From IMG/VR virus record IMGVR_UViG_3300031825_000381, positions 1 through 36,625 of that record: a stretch of 36,625 bases of DNA, one strand, 5' to 3'. Positions 782 through 33,079 of this stretch are shown here, piece by piece. This DNA is from a virus. Positions within the stretch are counted from its first letter, which is position 1. Every line of letters starts with the position of its first letter. The translations under genes and the position numbers were made by a program. The notes under the pieces are model-generated. The model was not told the DNA's origin and did no database searches. It saw nothing but the letters and a program-made list of their open reading frames with translations.

Positions 782-1027
782 ATGGAAAAAGAGGTAAAAA
801 AAGATCATCTGGATGAAGTAAAAGGGCACCTCATTACTGATTTAGCTGAAGCAGGCAGGTGCAGTAAAGAGTATGTGAGAAAAGTGATCAGCTTCGAAAG
901 AAAAGCAAATTCTAAAAAAGCAAAAGCGCTCCTGCGTGCCGCTATTGCACTAAATAGAAGCATCATTAAAGGTAAGGAGATTGTGAAGCGTGAATTATCA
1001 ATCATTTCTGAAGGGGACGAGGCGTGA
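782..1027 (+). CDS. Small basic protein in the Ner position
   Basis: An 81-aa protein rich in Lys/Arg and probably all alpha-helical, with a region (about 18-55, DLAEAGRCSKEYVRKVISFE) that could be a helix-turn-helix. It is the first gene after the divergent early promoter and overlaps the transposase start by 4 bp (GTGA), so the two are translationally coupled. In Mu this slot holds Ner, a small DNA-binding regulator of the early promoter. I see no clear family signature, so a Ner-like role is inferred from position, size and charge only. Confidence 0.7.
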   Translation: MEKEVKKDHLDEVKGHLITDLAEAGRCSKEYVRKVISFERKANSKKAKALLRAAIALNRSIIKGKEIVKRELSIISEGDEA

Positions 1028-3048
1028 GAACATTTGAATATCATAACAACATCTTGTGCGTGGTTGCAGACGTGCTTTATGAAGGCATAGGTTTAATTTC
1101 CTATGAAGCCTATTTGCAAAAAGCGCATCGCGGCACTTTGCGCCGAGAACGAAAAGCTTGTCCGGGTTCAAAAGCGTTAATCAATTACGAGCTTCTTCCA
1201 GATGCATGGAAGGAGCTTATTGTTGAGAAATACGGAAACCCTTACAGCACAGTAAAACACGAGTCGTTTATCGACTTTATAGTGAAGGATCAGGACGCTG
1301 AGCGATTTTATCGCGAATACGTATATAACGAAAATAGCTCACTCAGTTTAGAGCGCCAGAAAGAGTATTGCATCAACGCAGAGATTCTGAACACCGTCCA
1401 GATAGTAATTCAGAATCGAAAAGCTCGTTGCAAAGCACTTGGAGGTCGTGCATCGAAAGTATGGGAGAACATCAGCGCGATTTTAAACGAATTGGATAGG
1501 AAGCGCTTTCCACACACACTTCCAACAAATCAGCGCAGCCTTCAAAGAGTGTTTAAACGCTATATGGACAACGGTTATATGGGGCTTATTCACAAAAATT
1601 ACGGGAATGACAACAGTGAGAAGATTAACGATAACGCGAAAATTTGGATACTAACTCGCTGGTCGAACCAAGTTGAACGATGCGCGAATATAAATCAATT
1701 GTTCATGGAGTACAACCGGATCGCCCCTGATCGTGGTTGGAAACAACTTGAAGATCCCGCTTCGTTAAAACTGTTCCTGAATAGAGAAGACACACAACCG
1801 CTCTGGTGGGGACATCGTTACGGCGAGCTTCGTGCAAAAGAAAAGTACAGCTACCAGCATTCTACAAAACTTCCTACAATGCGCGACAGCTTGTGGTATA
1901 GTGATGGTACAAAACTGAACTACTTCTATTTGAACGCTGAAGGTAAGGTTTCAACCATCAATGTGTACGAAGTAATGGATGCTTATAGCGAAGTTTTACT
2001 TGGTTATCATATTGCAGAGAAAGAAGACTACCAAACGCAATATAGCGCCTATAAAATGGCGGTGCAATTCGCAGGCCACAAACCGTATCAGCTAGGTTTT
2101 GATAATCAGGGTGGACACAAGAAACTTGAAAACGGAAGCTTCCTTTCTAAAATCGCCCACCTCGCAATCAAAACACAGCCATACAACGGAAAATCCAAAA
2201 CAATCGAAAGCGCATTTAACCGATTTCAGTCTCAATACCTAAAGCAAGACTGGTTCTTCACCGGACAAAACATCACTGCTAAAAAACTCGAAAGCAAAGC
2301 ACAACTTGAGTTTATCAATGCTAATAAAAACAATCTTCCTTCCCTAAAGGAAATTAAAGATCGTTACAAGCAACGCCGCGATGAGTGGAATAACAGCTTA
2401 CACCATGTCACCGGTTTACCGAGACTTGAAATGTATTTGAATAGCAAAAATGAAGCTTGTCCTAAAGTAGAGATGTGGGATATGGTAGAAATCTTCTGGA
2501 TACTTCGTGAACAACCTGTAATGTACAGTGCCTATGGCCTCACTTTTCAAGAGAAAAACGAGAAGTACACCTATACAGTGTATAACGCTAACGGACTGCC
2601 TGATATGGATTGGCATGGAAAGAACATCGATAAGAAGTTCTTTATAAAGTTTGATCCTGAGGATATGGGCATGGTTCTACTTTACGAAAAAGATTCTGCC
2701 GGTGAGCTTCGCTTTGTAACTGAAGCAAAAACGAAAGTTGAAATCGCTCGCGGAAAACAAGAGCAGACAGATTTCGATCGCGCCTATTTAGCTGGAATTA
2801 AAAAAATCAATGACGAGGCGCGTGTTCAGCGTGTGGCACAAATGGAAACAATGCTACAGGAAAACGGCGTGTCTGTATCAGACTATGGATTGAATCAGCC
2901 TGCTATTCTCGGCATCAACTCTAAAAGAAAAAAAACCAAGAGATCAAAAGAGGATTTCGGCAAGCTTCAGAAGCAAGAAAGTGAACTAATACCTGTATTA
3001 GTTAACAAGGATGATGAAGAGGATATTAACATATATGATAGAATGTAA
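1024..3048 (+). CDS. MuA-like DDE transposase
   Basis: DDE recombinase of 674 aa, close to the 663 aa of Mu A. It should bind the phage ends, nick them and join them to target DNA for integration and replicative transposition. The N-terminal part (to about 280) holds DNA-binding helices. The catalytic RNase H-fold core shows Asp294 in YSDGTK, Asp360 in GFDNQGG and Glu395 in KSKTIESAFNRF. The basic C-terminus would carry the MuB-interaction region. The start is GTG at 1024, overlapping the upstream stop codon. It is followed by a hairpin and the muB-like gene, the standard transposition pair. The end sequences it recognises are outside the window. Confidence 0.95.
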   Translation: MRTFEYHNNILCVVADVLYEGIGLISYEAYLQKAHRGTLRRERKACPGSKALINYELLPDAWKELIVEKYGNPYSTVKHESFIDFIVKDQDAERFYREYVYNENSSLSLERQKEYCINAEILNTVQIVIQNRKARCKALGGRASKVWENISAILNELDRKRFPHTLPTNQRSLQRVFKRYMDNGYMGLIHKNYGNDNSEKINDNAKIWILTRWSNQVERCANINQLFMEYNRIAPDRGWKQLEDPASLKLFLNREDTQPLWWGHRYGELRAKEKYSYQHSTKLPTMRDSLWYSDGTKLNYFYLNAEGKVSTINVYEVMDAYSEVLLGYHIAEKEDYQTQYSAYKMAVQFAGHKPYQLGFDNQGGHKKLENGSFLSKIAHLAIKTQPYNGKSKTIESAFNRFQSQYLKQDWFFTGQNITAKKLESKAQLEFINANKNNLPSLKEIKDRYKQRRDEWNNSLHHVTGLPRLEMYLNSKNEACPKVEMWDMVEIFWILREQPVMYSAYGLTFQEKNEKYTYTVYNANGLPDMDWHGKNIDKKFFIKFDPEDMGMVLLYEKDSAGELRFVTEAKTKVEIARGKQEQTDFDRAYLAGIKKINDEARVQRVAQMETMLQENGVSVSDYGLNQPAILGINSKRKKTKRSKEDFGKLQKQESELIPVLVNKDDEEDINIYDRM

Positions 3049-3080: not shown

Positions 3081-3105
3081 AATGTATAAACAATATAAAA
3101 AAGAG

Positions 3106-3951
3106 ATGACAAATTTAAACAAACAACAAATCAAAAACAAATTGGCGGAATACTGCGAGAGGTATGAAAGCCAAAACAAAGCAGCTAACAGCCTGAAAGG
3201 TGTAAGCGCTGGTACCATCAGCCAAATCCTTAGTGAAAAGTGGGAGCAAATAAGCGATGAGATGTGGATGAAGGTTGCAAAGCAAGTTGGGTATTCAACA
3301 AAGCATTGGAACATAGTGGAGACTCGAAACTTCAAATTCTTCTCCGCATTGCTTAAGGACGCGGCTTTCAATAGCAATGTTATTGCAGTGGTTGCACCAG
3401 CTGGTGCAAGCAAATCAGAATCAGCGAAGCATTATGTTAGTAAAAATAAACGTGCATATCGCTTGGAATGCAACGAGTACTGGAATCGGAAAATGTTCTT
3501 ATCTGAGCTTCTCACTGTTATAGGACGCGACTACAGTGGTTTAAATGTGAACGAAATGGTTGGAGAGATTGTTCGCACACTTAAGGTTCAGGATTGCCCT
3601 GTAATCATTCTAGATGAATTCGACAAGGTAAGCGACCAGGTGCTTTACTTCTTTATTACCCTATACAATCAGTTGGAAGACAATTGTGGTATTGTGGTTT
3701 GTTCAACTGATCACCTTGAGAAGCGTATTAAACGCGGATTGAGACTGAATAAAAAAGGTTATAAAGAATTCTACAGTCGCATTGGCAGAAGGTTTATTGA
3801 GCTTCCGGGAGTAACCACAACAGACATTACACAAATCTGTATTGCGAACGGTCTGCCTGATAAGGAGGATATCAAGAAAGTAATTGAGGACAGCGACTAT
3901 GATTTGCGCCGAGTAAAAAGAAAAATTCACGCATTAAAGAACGCTGCATAA
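3106..3951 (+). CDS. MuB-like AAA+ target-selection ATPase
   Basis: ATP-dependent DNA-binding partner of the transposase that would deliver target DNA and stimulate strand transfer. Numbered from an upstream ATG at 3082, an HTH-like N-terminus (about 28-72) precedes the ATPase core. The P-loop is APAGASKS (105-112), which lacks the usual second Gly before Lys. Walker B is VIILDEFDK with Asp178-Glu179. I prefer the ATG at 3106 because AAAAAAGAG precedes it and the 3082 ATG directly abuts a hairpin. From 3106 the protein has 281 aa, against 312 for Mu B. The family call rests on the HTH + AAA architecture and the position after muA. Confidence 0.88.
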   Translation: MTNLNKQQIKNKLAEYCERYESQNKAANSLKGVSAGTISQILSEKWEQISDEMWMKVAKQVGYSTKHWNIVETRNFKFFSALLKDAAFNSNVIAVVAPAGASKSESAKHYVSKNKRAYRLECNEYWNRKMFLSELLTVIGRDYSGLNVNEMVGEIVRTLKVQDCPVIILDEFDKVSDQVLYFFITLYNQLEDNCGIVVCSTDHLEKRIKRGLRLNKKGYKEFYSRIGRRFIELPGVTTTDITQICIANGLPDKEDIKKVIEDSDYDLRRVKRKIHALKNAA

Positions 3952-5800: not shown

Positions 5801-6421
5801 ATGATACAAACATCAAAACAAAGCACATGGACTGATGCATCAGGCGTTCAGGTACCATTTAATCGGGTAACAAAACTCGAAAAGAATAAAGAGGCAGCTG
5901 CTGCAAAACTTCAAAAGTCAGCCAATCAAATAACTGATCTTTTAGCAGATTTTAAAGAAGTAATTGAGAAATGTACCGCTGCTTTTTACGAAGAGGTTCT
6001 GAAGGAAAACAAAGCCGACAAACGCGAACGTAAAGGAAACTTTACATGGTTCAATTTCAATAAAACCATTAAGGTTGAACGTTCAGCTACCGAGCGGATA
6101 GAATTTAAAGATGTGGAGATCCAGCTTGCAAAAGAAAAGCTTGACAGTTTCATCACTGACAGCTTAAGCAGCGCAGATGCTTTCATCAAGGAACTTGTTA
6201 ACGATGCCTTTCAAAACACTAAGGGCGGTTTAGATCCTAAGAAAGTATTAAGCCTTTTGAAATACAGATCGAAAACAAAAGCTGTTAAGTTTCACGAGGC
6301 TTTGGATCTAATTGAAAAATCAATAGAGCGTAATAGTAGTAAAACGTATTACCGCATCTCTGTTAAGAATGAGCAGTCCGGCGAGTATGAATACATCAAA
6401 CTGAACTTTAGCGATTTCTAG
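5801..6421 (+). CDS. DUF3164 family protein
   Basis: A 206-aa protein matching the pattern of DUF3164, a family common in early regions of Mu-like phages. It opens with TWTDASGVQVPFNRV, then a long helix with ADFKEVIEKC, a small domain GNFTWFNFNKTIKVERSATE, and a C-terminal helical part ending SSKTYYRISVKNEQ. Its biochemical role is not established. The position is where Mu carries kil/gam-like early genes, but it lacks the Gam (Ku-like) signature, so I do not call it Gam. The tRNA-like RNA begins 11 bp after the stop. Confidence 0.75.
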   Translation: MIQTSKQSTWTDASGVQVPFNRVTKLEKNKEAAAAKLQKSANQITDLLADFKEVIEKCTAAFYEEVLKENKADKRERKGNFTWFNFNKTIKVERSATERIEFKDVEIQLAKEKLDSFITDSLSSADAFIKELVNDAFQNTKGGLDPKKVLSLLKYRSKTKAVKFHEALDLIEKSIERNSSKTYYRISVKNEQSGEYEYIKLNFSDF

Positions 6422-6432
6422 TCGCATCCCCA

Positions 6433-6527
6433 TCCTGCATAGATCAACGCAGATCGTCTCGTTAGTTTTTGAGAGTTGTTTGTTTAATAATAGCGAGGAG
6501 ATGCCGGTTCGAGCCCGGTTGCAGGAA
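6433..6527 (+). tRNA. tRNA-like RNA (Asn-type arms) with a 32-nt anticodon loop
   Basis: Acceptor stem TCCTGCA (6433-6439) pairs perfectly with TGCAGGA (6520-6526). U8-A9 follow, then a D stem GATC/GATC (6442-6445, 6452-6455) around a shortened loop AACGCA. The anticodon stem is TCTCG (6457-6461) with CGAGG (6494-6498), followed by variable loop AGAT. The T arm is canonical: GCCGG-TTCGAGC-CCGGT (6503-6519), directly abutting the acceptor strand. Discriminator base is A6527, with no encoded CCA. The U1-A72 start and arm sequences resemble tRNA-Asn. The anticodon loop is 32 nt (6462-6493) instead of 7 and the D loop lacks the GG pair, so it is unlikely to decode normally. It could be a degenerate tRNA, a tRNA mimic or decoy, or a regulatory RNA. 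Confidence 0.6.
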
Positions 6528-6552
6528 CTGAAACCCTTATAAAACCAAAACC

Positions 6553-7017
6553 ATGCAAAAAGAAGCACAAGTCAATTTTTCACAGTTCACCGAAGAAGAG
6601 CAACTAGAAATGAGTCTTAACCAGATTCGCCGTCGCGTGTCGCCTCCATACGCGCCGTTTACACATTATCCTTTCGCTTACATCTCAGGAAAGATTAGCG
6701 GAGAGCCTGAAGGCAACAAGCACAAGTTTGAAGCGGCCAGCGATCTGCTTAACTCAAAAGGCTACTGCGCTGTAAATCCACACAAACTACCCGCCGCACA
6801 CGATAAAGAATGGCACTCATACATGCGCGAGTGCTGCTCACGCCTTAGCAAGTGTGATGTGGTGTTCGTTCTGGATGATTTCAGTAATTCCCGTGGCGCC
6901 AGAAGAGAAGTTCTTCTTGCTGAGTGGCTGAAGATCCCGGTATACTCAATCGAAAACATGAAGCGGGTTCAACTTAGCTTTTGGATGAAACTTAAAATGA
7001 TTTTAAACCTCGCTTAA
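6553..7017 (+). CDS. DUF4406 protein (nucleoside 2-deoxyribosyltransferase-like fold)
   Basis: A 154-aa protein. The core (about 40-140) reads FAYISGKISGEPEGN, then AASDLLNSKGYCAVNP, WHSYMRECCSRLSKCDVVFVLDD and SRGARREVLLAEWLKIPVY, the order of motifs in DUF4406. That family has the fold of nucleoside 2-deoxyribosyltransferases and is frequent in phages; its substrate is unknown. The stop codon TAA is followed at once by the ATG of the next gene. A nucleotide-metabolism or anti-defence role is only inferred from the fold. Confidence 0.8.
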   Translation: MQKEAQVNFSQFTEEEQLEMSLNQIRRRVSPPYAPFTHYPFAYISGKISGEPEGNKHKFEAASDLLNSKGYCAVNPHKLPAAHDKEWHSYMRECCSRLSKCDVVFVLDDFSNSRGARREVLLAEWLKIPVYSIENMKRVQLSFWMKLKMILNLA

Positions 7018-15256: not shown

Positions 15257-17353
15257 TTACTTCAGCTCTTTTGGTAATTGCTTGTTAACCTCTTTGTCAA
15301 TCTGCTTCTTGTCTGCCTTGCTGATCTCGTCGTAATACGGATGCGTATCAGGAAATGCAACGCCTGTCTTTCCAACATTGTTTTCAAACATCGGCTTCAG
15401 ATCCGGGAGGAGGATATCTTTCTTATCCGTTATCTTTCCGCTCGACAATTTCCTGATAACAGAGCGCTCACCCCAATGCAAAGGCAGGAAGTGTTTATCC
15501 CAAAACTCATCATCAGCCGGAAGCGTAACGCCATCCAGTGAGATGCAGATGTCAGTTGTACGGTTATCGAGAGTCGCATCAAATTGCAGGAGAGGTAGCG
15601 TGTCTTTTGTGTCCTGTATTTCCTGCCACTGACGAATTGCCTGGCTGCTTACAATCGCATGATCAAACTCCGCCTTCAGGTAAGTAACATTGTAGTTGTT
15701 GTGAACCTTCAGTACTTCTTTTTTAAACTCGCCCCATTGCCGTGCTTTACCGTCCTCACCAATCAGCTTGTCACTTATCGCCCGCAGCTGCTGGTATGTT
15801 TTAACACCAGAGAATACGAACATGTTTTTGTGAATGGCCTTAAGCATCTCAAGATCTCGCGTGCTCAAATCTTCATCATCCAGCGAAAAGCCAAAACCTG
15901 AAGTAACCGCTTCTTGTAAATGCTCTGCTGTCTTCTTCAGAAGATCCCGGTCGATAACGCCTGTTTTCTTCCCTTCAAACATTGCTTTAGCAACCTTTAA
16001 TACTATTTTAAGGAAACCGGGAGTAGATGCAGCAGCTGGCGAATTTAACGCCTGTTTATTACAGCAGGATGCTCCATATAATCCCCTGATTTTAGCCTCT
16101 AGGCTTTTTTTTTTATCCGATGGTAATGTTGCAGATGGAGTAGTTGTTTTTCTGCCAATAATGGGAATGCCTGTTTTAAGCGTTACAAACTCAGGATCTA
16201 CTTCAAACTCGCTAGAAAGCTTTACTACATAATCCACCACCTCGCTTACGGTAAGATCTTCAGACCTGTCCCATTCCAGTTTTAAGTTGGCCAGAGATCT
16301 GTATGCAGGACTAAGCTGAACAAGGCGCGGAATTAGAATGTCGTTAATCAGGTACTGAAGGAAAGTGAGATCTGCTTCATGGCGATCTTTACTAATCTTC
16401 TGCAAGATTTCCATGCTTCCGTAAGTGCCCTTGTTGTTATTGCTGTTGCTGGTGGAGCTCTGCCCCAGCAAGTGCATGGCCTGCTCAGCGTTCAGAATAT
16501 TAATCAGGGCTTCAAAGCATCGCGTAGGATCTGTTCCGGCAATGGTGTGAAGCTTTAACTCCTCATCCTTATTCAAGACAGCCCAACCAGCGGAGCCCAT
16601 GTTCTCGAGAATTATCGCTAATTGACTCTGGCGGACTTTATCCATATTGGAAGAGTGAACCGAACGGAATGGAATTCCCATCTTTTCGTTAAACTCAGAC
16701 CAGTGACCAATTGCATATTTCTTAGCTAGTATCGCAGGCGCAGCCTTATACAATAAGCCCAGGTCTGTTGCTTTACCAACTGGCAGATAAAACGGCGCTT
16801 GAGCGCCATCCAAATAGCCCCACCCTTTATCGTCGCCCAATTCTTTTACAACAATTCCTTTGTGCGGCTTTACGTGGTATTTGTTCACTCGTTCACATTT
16901 AGCCAGCTCTCCGTCTTCCCGGAACTCATATAACTCCAGAAGAGAATAACCTTCAAAACGGCTAGTGATTGCGTGGTGAATAAAATCTAGGAACCACTGG
17001 CGCTCAAACAAACTTTTCGCGTCGTCAATGGGTTTTTTGTTCTTATCAACAATATTAAACTTCGACTGCTGTAACTTCAGAATACGAGTTTCAATGTTTG
17101 CCGACAAAGTAAGATCCACTTGTATGTCGTCAATTACTTCATACAGTAATGTTAAGTCAGGATCTTCAGCCGTTGCCGAACGCTTAGCTTCCTTCCACTT
17201 TTTTAAGTCAATACGCTGGAAGCTGGTGCTGCTTGGCTTAATTAATGTACTAAGCGGTTGCCCTCTTCTCAACGCTGCCTCAACAAGTATTTCGTTGTCA
17301 GGAACAAACTTTAGAATTTTGTGTGATGCGCCCACGCGCGAATTTGTACTCAT
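15257..17353 (-). CDS. Portal (DUF935, Mu gp29-like) fused to Mu gpF-like head protein
   Basis: A 698-aa protein. Residues 1 to about 410 match DUF935 portal proteins of Mu-like phages (QRIDLKKWKEAKRSAT, RQWFLDFIHHAITSRFEGYS, DRHEADLTFLQYLINDILIP). After a variable linker (about 415-470, Lys- and Ala/Ser-rich), residues about 520-640 match the Mu gpF minor head protein (HAIVSSQAIRQWQEI, ATLDNRTTDICISLDG, LPLHWGERSVIRKL). Mu makes gp29 and gpF as separate proteins, both in the head; here one polypeptide would carry portal ring and internal minor-head functions. It sits between the gp36-like connector and gpG-like genes, as expected. Confidence 0.9.
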   Translation of the reverse strand: MSTNSRVGASHKILKFVPDNEILVEAALRRGQPLSTLIKPSSTSFQRIDLKKWKEAKRSATAEDPDLTLLYEVIDDIQVDLTLSANIETRILKLQQSKFNIVDKNKKPIDDAKSLFERQWFLDFIHHAITSRFEGYSLLELYEFREDGELAKCERVNKYHVKPHKGIVVKELGDDKGWGYLDGAQAPFYLPVGKATDLGLLYKAAPAILAKKYAIGHWSEFNEKMGIPFRSVHSSNMDKVRQSQLAIILENMGSAGWAVLNKDEELKLHTIAGTDPTRCFEALINILNAEQAMHLLGQSSTSNSNNNKGTYGSMEILQKISKDRHEADLTFLQYLINDILIPRLVQLSPAYRSLANLKLEWDRSEDLTVSEVVDYVVKLSSEFEVDPEFVTLKTGIPIIGRKTTTPSATLPSDKKKSLEAKIRGLYGASCCNKQALNSPAAASTPGFLKIVLKVAKAMFEGKKTGVIDRDLLKKTAEHLQEAVTSGFGFSLDDEDLSTRDLEMLKAIHKNMFVFSGVKTYQQLRAISDKLIGEDGKARQWGEFKKEVLKVHNNYNVTYLKAEFDHAIVSSQAIRQWQEIQDTKDTLPLLQFDATLDNRTTDICISLDGVTLPADDEFWDKHFLPLHWGERSVIRKLSSGKITDKKDILLPDLKPMFENNVGKTGVAFPDTHPYYDEISKADKKQIDKEVNKQLPKELK

Positions 17354-31448: not shown

Positions 31449-33079
31449 TGAGCAAGTTTATAACAGTAGATATTAACCAGAGCATATGGGACATTGCTAT
31501 ACAAGAATATGGTGATGCTTCAGGAGTTAAGCAGCTAATGATTGACAATCCGTTCTTAGGCTTTACGCAATCACTTCAGCCAGGCACAAAGCTCAAAATT
31601 ACAGGATCAGTTATTAACCAGAATGTGGTGAACTATCTATTAACCTCCGGCAATAAACCATCCACGGCGTTCATTCCTCCGCCTGTAATTACTGTTTCTC
31701 CAACAACCTTGAGCTTTAGCAGTCTTCTTATTGGTCAGGTTTCAGCGTCTCAATCTGTGGTTGTTACGGGTACGGATCTGCTTGGCAACCTTGTTGTTAC
31801 GGCTCCGACCGGATACATAATTAACACAGATAACTCCAACACAAATCAAAGCCCATTAAGTTTTGCTCCGGTCGACGGAGAGGTTAATGAAACGGTTTAT
31901 GTGAAATTTGCTCCAATCGGGAATGTAAACTATAATAATCTAACGATTTCTCTTACATCGACCAATGCAATAACAAAAACAGTAACGGTTAACGGTGTAG
32001 TAACAGTACCGACGATATCGGTAGCTCCAAACTCGCTAAGCTTTCCGAACACTTATCCGGGATCAATTTCCAGCTCAATGTCCTACGTAGTGAGTGGATC
32101 AGATCTATTGGCGCCGATAGTTATAACCGCGCCAGCAGGGTATATCATAAATACAAATAACAGCTCCAGCAACCAAAGTCCTATTTCTCTATCTCCGGTT
32201 GCAGGATCTGTTTCCGCGACTACAATTTATGTGAAGTTTAACCCTGCTACTGACGTATCATACATTGGCAACATTACGCACTCATCGACAAGTGCAACTA
32301 CGCAAAACGTCGCTTTATCTGGTACTGGTGCTTACGATACAGACGCGCAGGCGTACTTCAATCAACTGACTCCACAGCCTTCTACAGCGTTTAAAATCGC
32401 TATAAATACGCTTGTACTCACTTTGAAGTCTGATGGAAACTGGGCTCGTTTAGATAGACTCTGGATACATGGAGTAGAAAGTCAGCAGCATGCGCGTATC
32501 AGTCTGGTAAATCCAACTTCGACAGCCATTACTGAGGTAAACAGTCCGGCTTGGACAGCCAACTTTGGTTATGCAACAAATGGTTCTAATCAATATCTGA
32601 ACACAAATTATAACGCAAGCACGAACGGAGTTAACTATCTTCTCGACTCATCTTCTTTTGGATTTTATGGCAATATTAGCGGAATCGCCTTAGGTTATTC
32701 AATGGGTTGTAACGACGGAACCCGTCGTATACAAATGGGTCCTAGGGTGAATGGGCAATTTTATTATGCTATTAATACTACTACTTTAAGTTTACCTAAC
32801 AATACGGTTTCGCAAGGATCATTTGCAGTCGCAAGAACTGGCCAGAACGCGAGTCAAGCTTATGTGAATGGTAGTCAAATACATTCAAACACACTAACCA
32901 GCAGCTTGCGCCCGAACTATAACAATTACGTTGGTTGTGAAAACGCCAGTGGCACCGCAGGATCTTTTAATACCCTTACGCAATTATCATTCAGCTGGTT
33001 TGGTGGAGGTACAATATCTCAGTTAGCCTTACACAATGCGCTTCACACATTTGCAACAACAAGAGGATTTTCACTATGA
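31448..33079 (+). CDS. LysM-like tail protein with two Ig-like repeats and a lectin-like C-terminus
   Basis: A 543-aa multidomain protein. Residues 1-52 resemble LysM/tail protein X (ITVDINQSIWDIAIQEYGDA, LQPGTKLKITG). Two tandem repeats of about 105 aa (about 81-185 and 190-294) share GTDLLGNLVVTAPTGYIIN / GSDLLAPIVITAPAGYIIN and NQSPLS/NQSPIS and look like Ig-like domains. Residues about 300-543 look like a concanavalin/LamG-type glycan-binding fold (WARLDRLWIHGVESQQHARI, YVNGSQIHSNTLT, NYVGCENASGTAG). Placed in the baseplate operon, it may both attach to the baseplate and bind host glycans. A fused gpX-plus-adhesin is unlike Mu. Confidence 0.75.
   Translation: MSKFITVDINQSIWDIAIQEYGDASGVKQLMIDNPFLGFTQSLQPGTKLKITGSVINQNVVNYLLTSGNKPSTAFIPPPVITVSPTTLSFSSLLIGQVSASQSVVVTGTDLLGNLVVTAPTGYIINTDNSNTNQSPLSFAPVDGEVNETVYVKFAPIGNVNYNNLTISLTSTNAITKTVTVNGVVTVPTISVAPNSLSFPNTYPGSISSSMSYVVSGSDLLAPIVITAPAGYIINTNNSSSNQSPISLSPVAGSVSATTIYVKFNPATDVSYIGNITHSSTSATTQNVALSGTGAYDTDAQAYFNQLTPQPSTAFKIAINTLVLTLKSDGNWARLDRLWIHGVESQQHARISLVNPTSTAITEVNSPAWTANFGYATNGSNQYLNTNYNASTNGVNYLLDSSSFGFYGNISGIALGYSMGCNDGTRRIQMGPRVNGQFYYAINTTTLSLPNNTVSQGSFAVARTGQNASQAYVNGSQIHSNTLTSSLRPNYNNYVGCENASGTAGSFNTLTQLSFSWFGGGTISQLALHNALHTFATTRGFSL

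Follow-up and report, generated by a model that had tools for sequence, protein, structure and literature searches.

tRNA-like elements between phage genes and their possible role as cis-acting punctuation of operon mRNA

Two genes in the early operon of a Mu-like phage of Bacteroidota type are separated by an RNA element that displays the top half of a tRNA, and structures sharing this half recur, down to minihelices of 40-45 nt, at gene borders of other phages. The phage is transposable and is encoded by a 36.6 kb IMG/VR virus record, the whole of which is referred to here as the window. The anatomy of the elements, their recurrence, the covariation of their stems and their placement were observed directly. 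Since the elements show the anatomy and placement of t-element-like signals, we propose, and consider fairly probable, that the element is a cis-acting, tRNA-like punctuation of the phage operon mRNA that the host enzymes RNase P and RNase Z would cut.

The tRNA-like element of the window

The element extends from position 6433 to 6527 on the plus strand. Its acceptor stem comprises the 5' strand TCCTGCA (6433-6439; sequence and fold) and the 3' strand TGCAGGA, which with the discriminator base A6527 occupies 6520-6527 (sequence) and completes 7 of 7 Watson-Crick pairs; CCA is not encoded at the 3' end. These strands enclose a short D arm, GATC-AACGCA-GATC (6442-6455; sequence and fold), an enlarged anticodon-like arm (6457-6498; fold and position), the variable loop AGAT (6499-6502; sequence) and a T arm, GCCGG-TTCGAGC-CCGGT (6503-6519; sequence, fold and scans), with all five T-stem pairs formed, one of them G-U. 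Acceptor stem, T stem and a T loop of the form TTCRANY stand in tRNA register, and the sequence and its fold confirm what the original prediction had claimed for these parts and for the four-base variable loop. The short D loop described there was likewise found, AACGCA, lacking the GG of a tRNA elbow. The predicted 5-bp anticodon stem (TCTCG/CGAGG) exists and is prolonged by three more pairs into an 8-bp stem; the apical loop, given as 32 nt in the same prediction, folds as 26 nt (6465-6490) and is not the 7-nt loop that would hold a readable anticodon. With its D and anticodon-like arms the element also differs from a minihelix, in which a linker of ~9-14 nt with GG takes their place. The top half, in which acceptor and T arm form a 12-bp stack with a canonical T loop, nevertheless corresponds to a full tRNA minihelix.

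ARAGORN reported 6433-6528 on the plus strand as the sole tRNA-type match in the window, labelled "tRNA-???" with an unreadable anticodon. The minimum free energy of the fold is -28.8 kcal/mol (z-score of -1.8), a value equalled or bettered by 8 of 200 shuffled sequences, and Rfam returned nothing for the element at gathering score or at E ≤ 10; thus folding energy is not decisive by itself. The RF00005 score of a translation-competent tRNA was not reached, the covariance model R1 had no match in the window, and INPHARED phages contained no DNA relatives of positions 6000-7000.

The window encodes a MuA-like transposase (1024-3048) and a MuB-like ATPase (3082-3951). The cistron upstream of the element is a DUF3164 gene (5801-6421, plus strand; PF11363, E 1.4e-29; phrog_846), the stop codon of which lies 11 nt before the element, and the downstream cistron is a DUF4406 or nucleoside 2-deoxyribosyltransferase-like gene (6553-7017, plus strand; PF14359, E 2.6e-22; phrog_355), the start codon of which follows after about 25-26 nt, leaving a short leader at 6528-6552 (sequence). 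Neither a promoter of the sigma-70 or Bacteroidota type nor a terminator-like site was seen beside the element, which therefore probably lies within the operon transcript; what had been described as a gap lacking a gene is an intercistronic position within an operon. The tRNA-like top half, the sense strand and the gene border together are the features of t-element-like punctuation, and the putative membership of the window element in the class described below is founded on its slot, its orientation and this top half. Elsewhere in the window, a single ORF of 698 aa on the minus strand (15257-17353) matches a portal family over its N-terminal part and, over its C-terminal part, minor head/head morphogenesis families, which suggests a fused portal and head protein.

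Related elements, their placement and stem covariation

As the window element had no DNA relative in the phage collection, the neighbouring gene was used as an anchor, and about 300 loci, 230 of them distinct, were gathered through DUF3164, with Bacteroidota genomes as their main home. The search of related phages that had been suggested thus yielded relatives of the slot and no close DNA relative of the window element. Many loci hold other tRNA-like sequences downstream of DUF3164, in forms that comprise near-complete tRNAs, anticodon-altered and anticodon-less versions and minihelices of 40-45 nt. By our own assignment from sequence, L013, L108, L114 and L115 look like initiator tRNA and L063 like tRNA-Lys, and some of the near-complete tRNAs may translate. 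The tRNA D arm is kept beside a long, extended anticodon arm in L120, L258 and L272, the anticodon arm is missing from L045 (60 nt) and L018, and minihelices consisting of an acceptor, the GG-containing linker and a T arm, with a 12-bp acceptor/T stack and a T loop, occupy the slot in L256, L263, L269, L291, L203, L057, L008 and L016. The window element stands midway along this gradation. Rfam matched tRNA only in the near-complete forms and matched none of the minihelices. In one locus, L234, a match to the Rfam DUF805b RNA (3424-3456; 38.3 bits, above the cut-off) starts 4 nt past the minihelix at 3381-3420, within the same intergenic gap.

Two proposals made for the window element were weighed against these forms. 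A decoy for anticodon nucleases would need an anticodon stem-loop kept across relatives and is disfavoured, since L045, L018 and the minihelices (40-45 nt) found in this slot have no such arm; a small-intron-like insertion is disfavoured by a lower half that varies freely in size and is often missing. Most DUF3164 loci have no detectable element, so that its function would be optional. Acceptor plus T scans found no element after DUF3164 in 6 of 6 proteobacterial Mu-like phages, and in four of the five annotated ones the next gene lies within ~11 nt or overlaps.

More informative than the folding energy was a scan for an acceptor stem followed by a 5-bp T arm with a YTCRANN loop, which found matches within 400 nt after DUF3164 at 19 of 230 loci, compared with a mean of 0.05 in dinucleotide shuffles, and its strict form, run over 1.13 Mb, gave about 40 matches on the operon strand and one on the opposite strand. 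A dedicated minihelix scan of the DUF3164 loci gave 30 sense matches against 1 antisense, and all 30 sense linkers contain GG, though the scan did not demand it. The elbow of a tRNA forms when the D-loop residues G18 and G19 dock on its T loop, and the linker GG is thus most simply read as a remnant of the D loop. Two or three minihelices occur within ~5 kb of one operon in each of L241, L234, L087 and L239; several minihelices start at the nucleotide right after a stop codon, the next ATG mostly following at +14-36 nt. In every whole phage record, all minihelices placed by covariance model R1 share a strand, and the model found none in 394 other Bacteroidota genomes, a weak negative since only 15 candidates were scored per genome. 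Over all loci gathered, 101 of 144 distinct minihelices have the end of a sense ORF (≥60 aa) at most 60 nt upstream, compared with 14% of random positions. Encoded CCA is rare among the phage elements.

Covariation was assessed on sequences harvested by linker and loop motifs alone, with pairing disregarded. At least 11 of 12 pairs form in 40 of the 59 harvested 42-mers, where ~1 would be expected with shuffled partners. After removal of near-duplicates, 49 gap-free aligned sequences remained, seven visibly non-pairing ones included, and in these 83.2% of stem cells are paired, compared with 47.7% for shuffled partners. The covariation score is 0.812 against 0.184 when shuffled, a value reached by 0 of 500 shuffles, and a slide by one column destroys the signal. 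All 12 pairs show changes on both sides; the inner two T-stem pairs, fixed in the pattern that supplied part of the set, carry no weight, and the effect is seen in the other ten. In the slot itself, a compensatory T-stem change, A-U to G-C, distinguishes L256 from L269. The original prediction that the acceptor and T arms are maintained thus holds at the level of related elements: the structure of the class, as distinct from that of the window copy, is maintained by selection.

Minihelices were also found beyond Mu-like phages. A DNA pattern of linker and T loop, in which only the inner two T-stem pairs of the stems are fixed, matched at least 120 IMG/VR stretches; paired minihelices are present in 80 of the 120 matches listed, and a stricter scan of these matches gave at least 118 minihelices, with none in triplet-shuffled versions. 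The pattern favours one linker flavour, making this abundance a lower bound. One matched record represents Mycobacterium phage Cuke, and the complete genome of this phage (NC_048696) contains 12 minihelices, all on the plus strand between 30 and 39 kb and nearly all beginning 6-10 nt past a stop codon, with stem sequences that vary from copy to copy. Eight of the 12 are intergenic by annotation, the next gene following 42-50 nt on, and four (30010, 32435, 32718 and 36044) share sequence with an annotated gene, at or close to its start or end. For the minihelices at 32435, 32718 and 36044, the gene is annotated as starting upstream of, or just before, the minihelix, and these starts may be miscalled. 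Mycobacterium phage Predator has at least seven minihelices. Neither the Cuke nor the Predator record annotates them, Rfam gave no match, and the scan found none in phi80 or Mu.

Other settings were also encountered. More than 12 minihelices, spaced roughly 100-150 nt, occupy L360:2521-12879 (minus strand of a 180-kb virus contig), mostly with no adjoining ORF of ≥40 aa and with none called by ARAGORN; several are followed by a hairpin beginning AATAGGGTT, and the run resembles a series of small RNAs with tRNA-like elements as spacers. A 67-kb virus contig has ~10 in a run with few or no ORFs between them (L370:7380-8798). Conserved minihelices in Streptococcus prophages (L327, L407, L415, L424 and Javan119, L433:8994-9293) lie in a gene-poor stretch upstream of terminase genes, unlike the copies at operon borders.

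Proposed processing and alternative explanations

The D and anticodon arms vary or are missing, whereas the top half is common to the elements of the related slot and to those of unrelated phages. The conserved part consists of the T loop and 11-12 bp of stacked acceptor and T stems, the region read by processing enzymes: RNase P binds the T-arm/acceptor stack, measuring from the elbow, and needs a T loop but not the D loop (PMC4919913). In the proposed mechanism, host RNase P would recognise the minihelix top half within the long transcript and, gauging the length of the acceptor/T stack from the elbow, would cleave immediately before position 6433, some 11 nt past the DUF3164 stop codon. A cut by RNase Z after discriminator 6527 would set the 5' end of the next cistron about 25 nt before its ATG, so that the two cistrons would become separate mRNAs with defined ends. 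The freed tRNA-like piece would be a by-product for which a translation role is unnecessary, and the large anticodon-like hairpin would be tolerated since both enzymes hardly read that part. We infer the identity of the enzymes, RNase P and RNase Z, solely from the shape of the elements. That stem sequences differ within one genome fits recognition of shape, as opposed to codon, aminoacyl-tRNA synthetase or antisense identity. Three features of the window copy count against this reading: its D loop has no GG, no close relative turned up for it, and its architecture is not that of a minihelix.

The original suggestion of a mimic for tRNA enzymes pointed in the right direction, and the placement of the elements suggests cis action of RNase P and RNase Z on the mRNA, not aminoacylation. 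A trans-acting mimic, the freed RNA of which titrates or feeds CCA-adding enzyme, EF-Tu, an acceptor-end toxin or RNase P, for instance in counter-defence, is the best surviving alternative and is nonetheless unlikely. The acceptor/T half alone is what tRNA-acting enzymes bind, the canonical T loop and the stack are conserved, and several copies occur per genome, all as such a mimic would have it. It would, however, have no need to lie ~0-10 nt after a stop and ~20-50 nt before a start at every copy, or to vary its stems from copy to copy within one genome. Rather less likely is a structural mRNA element, in which a stable hairpin left uncut by tRNA enzymes shields the 3' end upstream of it or insulates the leader that follows. 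Sense intercistronic placement and a stable stack agree with it, while a plain hairpin requires neither a TTCRA T loop, nor the GG present in every sense linker (30/30), nor a stack of 11-12 bp split by a linker.

Decay of a tRNA gene, or tRNA-derived cargo the upper half of which persists by chance, is yet less probable than a structural hairpin and already unlikely for the element class. The near-complete tRNAs in the slot of L013, L108, L114, L115 and L063, as well as the broken D loop and missing anticodon of the window copy, are what decay would leave. Neutral decay, however, would not leave 7 + 5 pairs and the T loop intact amid change elsewhere, and it conflicts with the compensatory changes (L256/L269), with the strong covariation and with the 12 Cuke copies at fixed distances; the simple decay first entertained is likewise disfavoured by a 12-bp stack and T loop that persist and covary across unrelated phages and by repeated copies inside one genome. 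An antisense RNA on a tRNA scaffold, pairing its exposed 26-nt loop with a target mRNA, is very improbable: the loop (6465-6490) has a perfect 13-nt complement at 3115-3127 in the MuB-like gene, yet 6 of 200 shuffled loops also reach 13 nt and the slot is also filled by elements without an anticodon arm.

Relation to known tRNA-like elements and RNase P substrates

No description of intercistronic tRNA-like elements in phages was found in Rfam or in the literature, preprints not covered, and the set is apparently large and undescribed. We lean, with little better than even confidence, towards a cross-phylum tRNA-derived class by which Bacteroidota, mycobacterial and other tailed phages punctuate their transcripts through host RNase P and RNase Z, that is, a recurrent "t-element" system outside organelles, graded from captured tRNA gene to 40-nt minihelix. 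If true, phages would have a general route for splitting long operon transcripts into individual mRNAs by means of the host's tRNA enzymes, something otherwise known mainly from organelles. The class would account for many operon gaps of 80-100 nt in phages and lead to corrected starts for some of their genes; its members would be compact natural processing tags, and they would show captured tRNA genes shrinking to the enzyme-recognised core. The dependence of phage gene expression on RNase P would be directly testable in laboratory phages, for example Cuke and Predator.

In mitochondrial tRNA punctuation, tRNA structures between genes mark the sites at which transcripts are cut. The phage elements are likewise intergenic tRNA structures; the punctuating RNAs of mitochondria are working tRNAs, whereas most phage copies cannot decode. 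Closer are the t-elements of plant mitochondria, tRNA-like structures at mRNA ends that are cut by RNase P and RNase Z and are CCA-tailed and not charged (PMC11658184). Like the phage elements, they are tRNA-like, encode no CCA and can dispense with a translation function, and they keep a predicted tRNA-like secondary structure in organelle genomes (PMC11658184). The phage elements differ in belonging to operons of dsDNA phages, in measuring often 40-45 nt, in occurring in many copies per genome and in that their cutting is proposed from shape and placement.

RNase P also cuts the C4 RNA of P1 and P7, the M3 RNA of phi80, the T4 gene 32 mRNA and polycistronic mRNAs (PMC11143913). These non-tRNA substrates resemble the present proposal in being phage or operon RNAs processed by host RNase P; they are, however, isolated cases, in which no tRNA minihelix recurs at gene borders, and phi80, which encodes M3 RNA, has no minihelix in the scan. 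With ordinary phage tRNA genes the elements share the acceptor and T arms, and some slot loci look usable as tRNAs. In contrast, the window element offers neither an anticodon loop that could be used nor a GG in its D loop, and the minihelices are without both lower arms.
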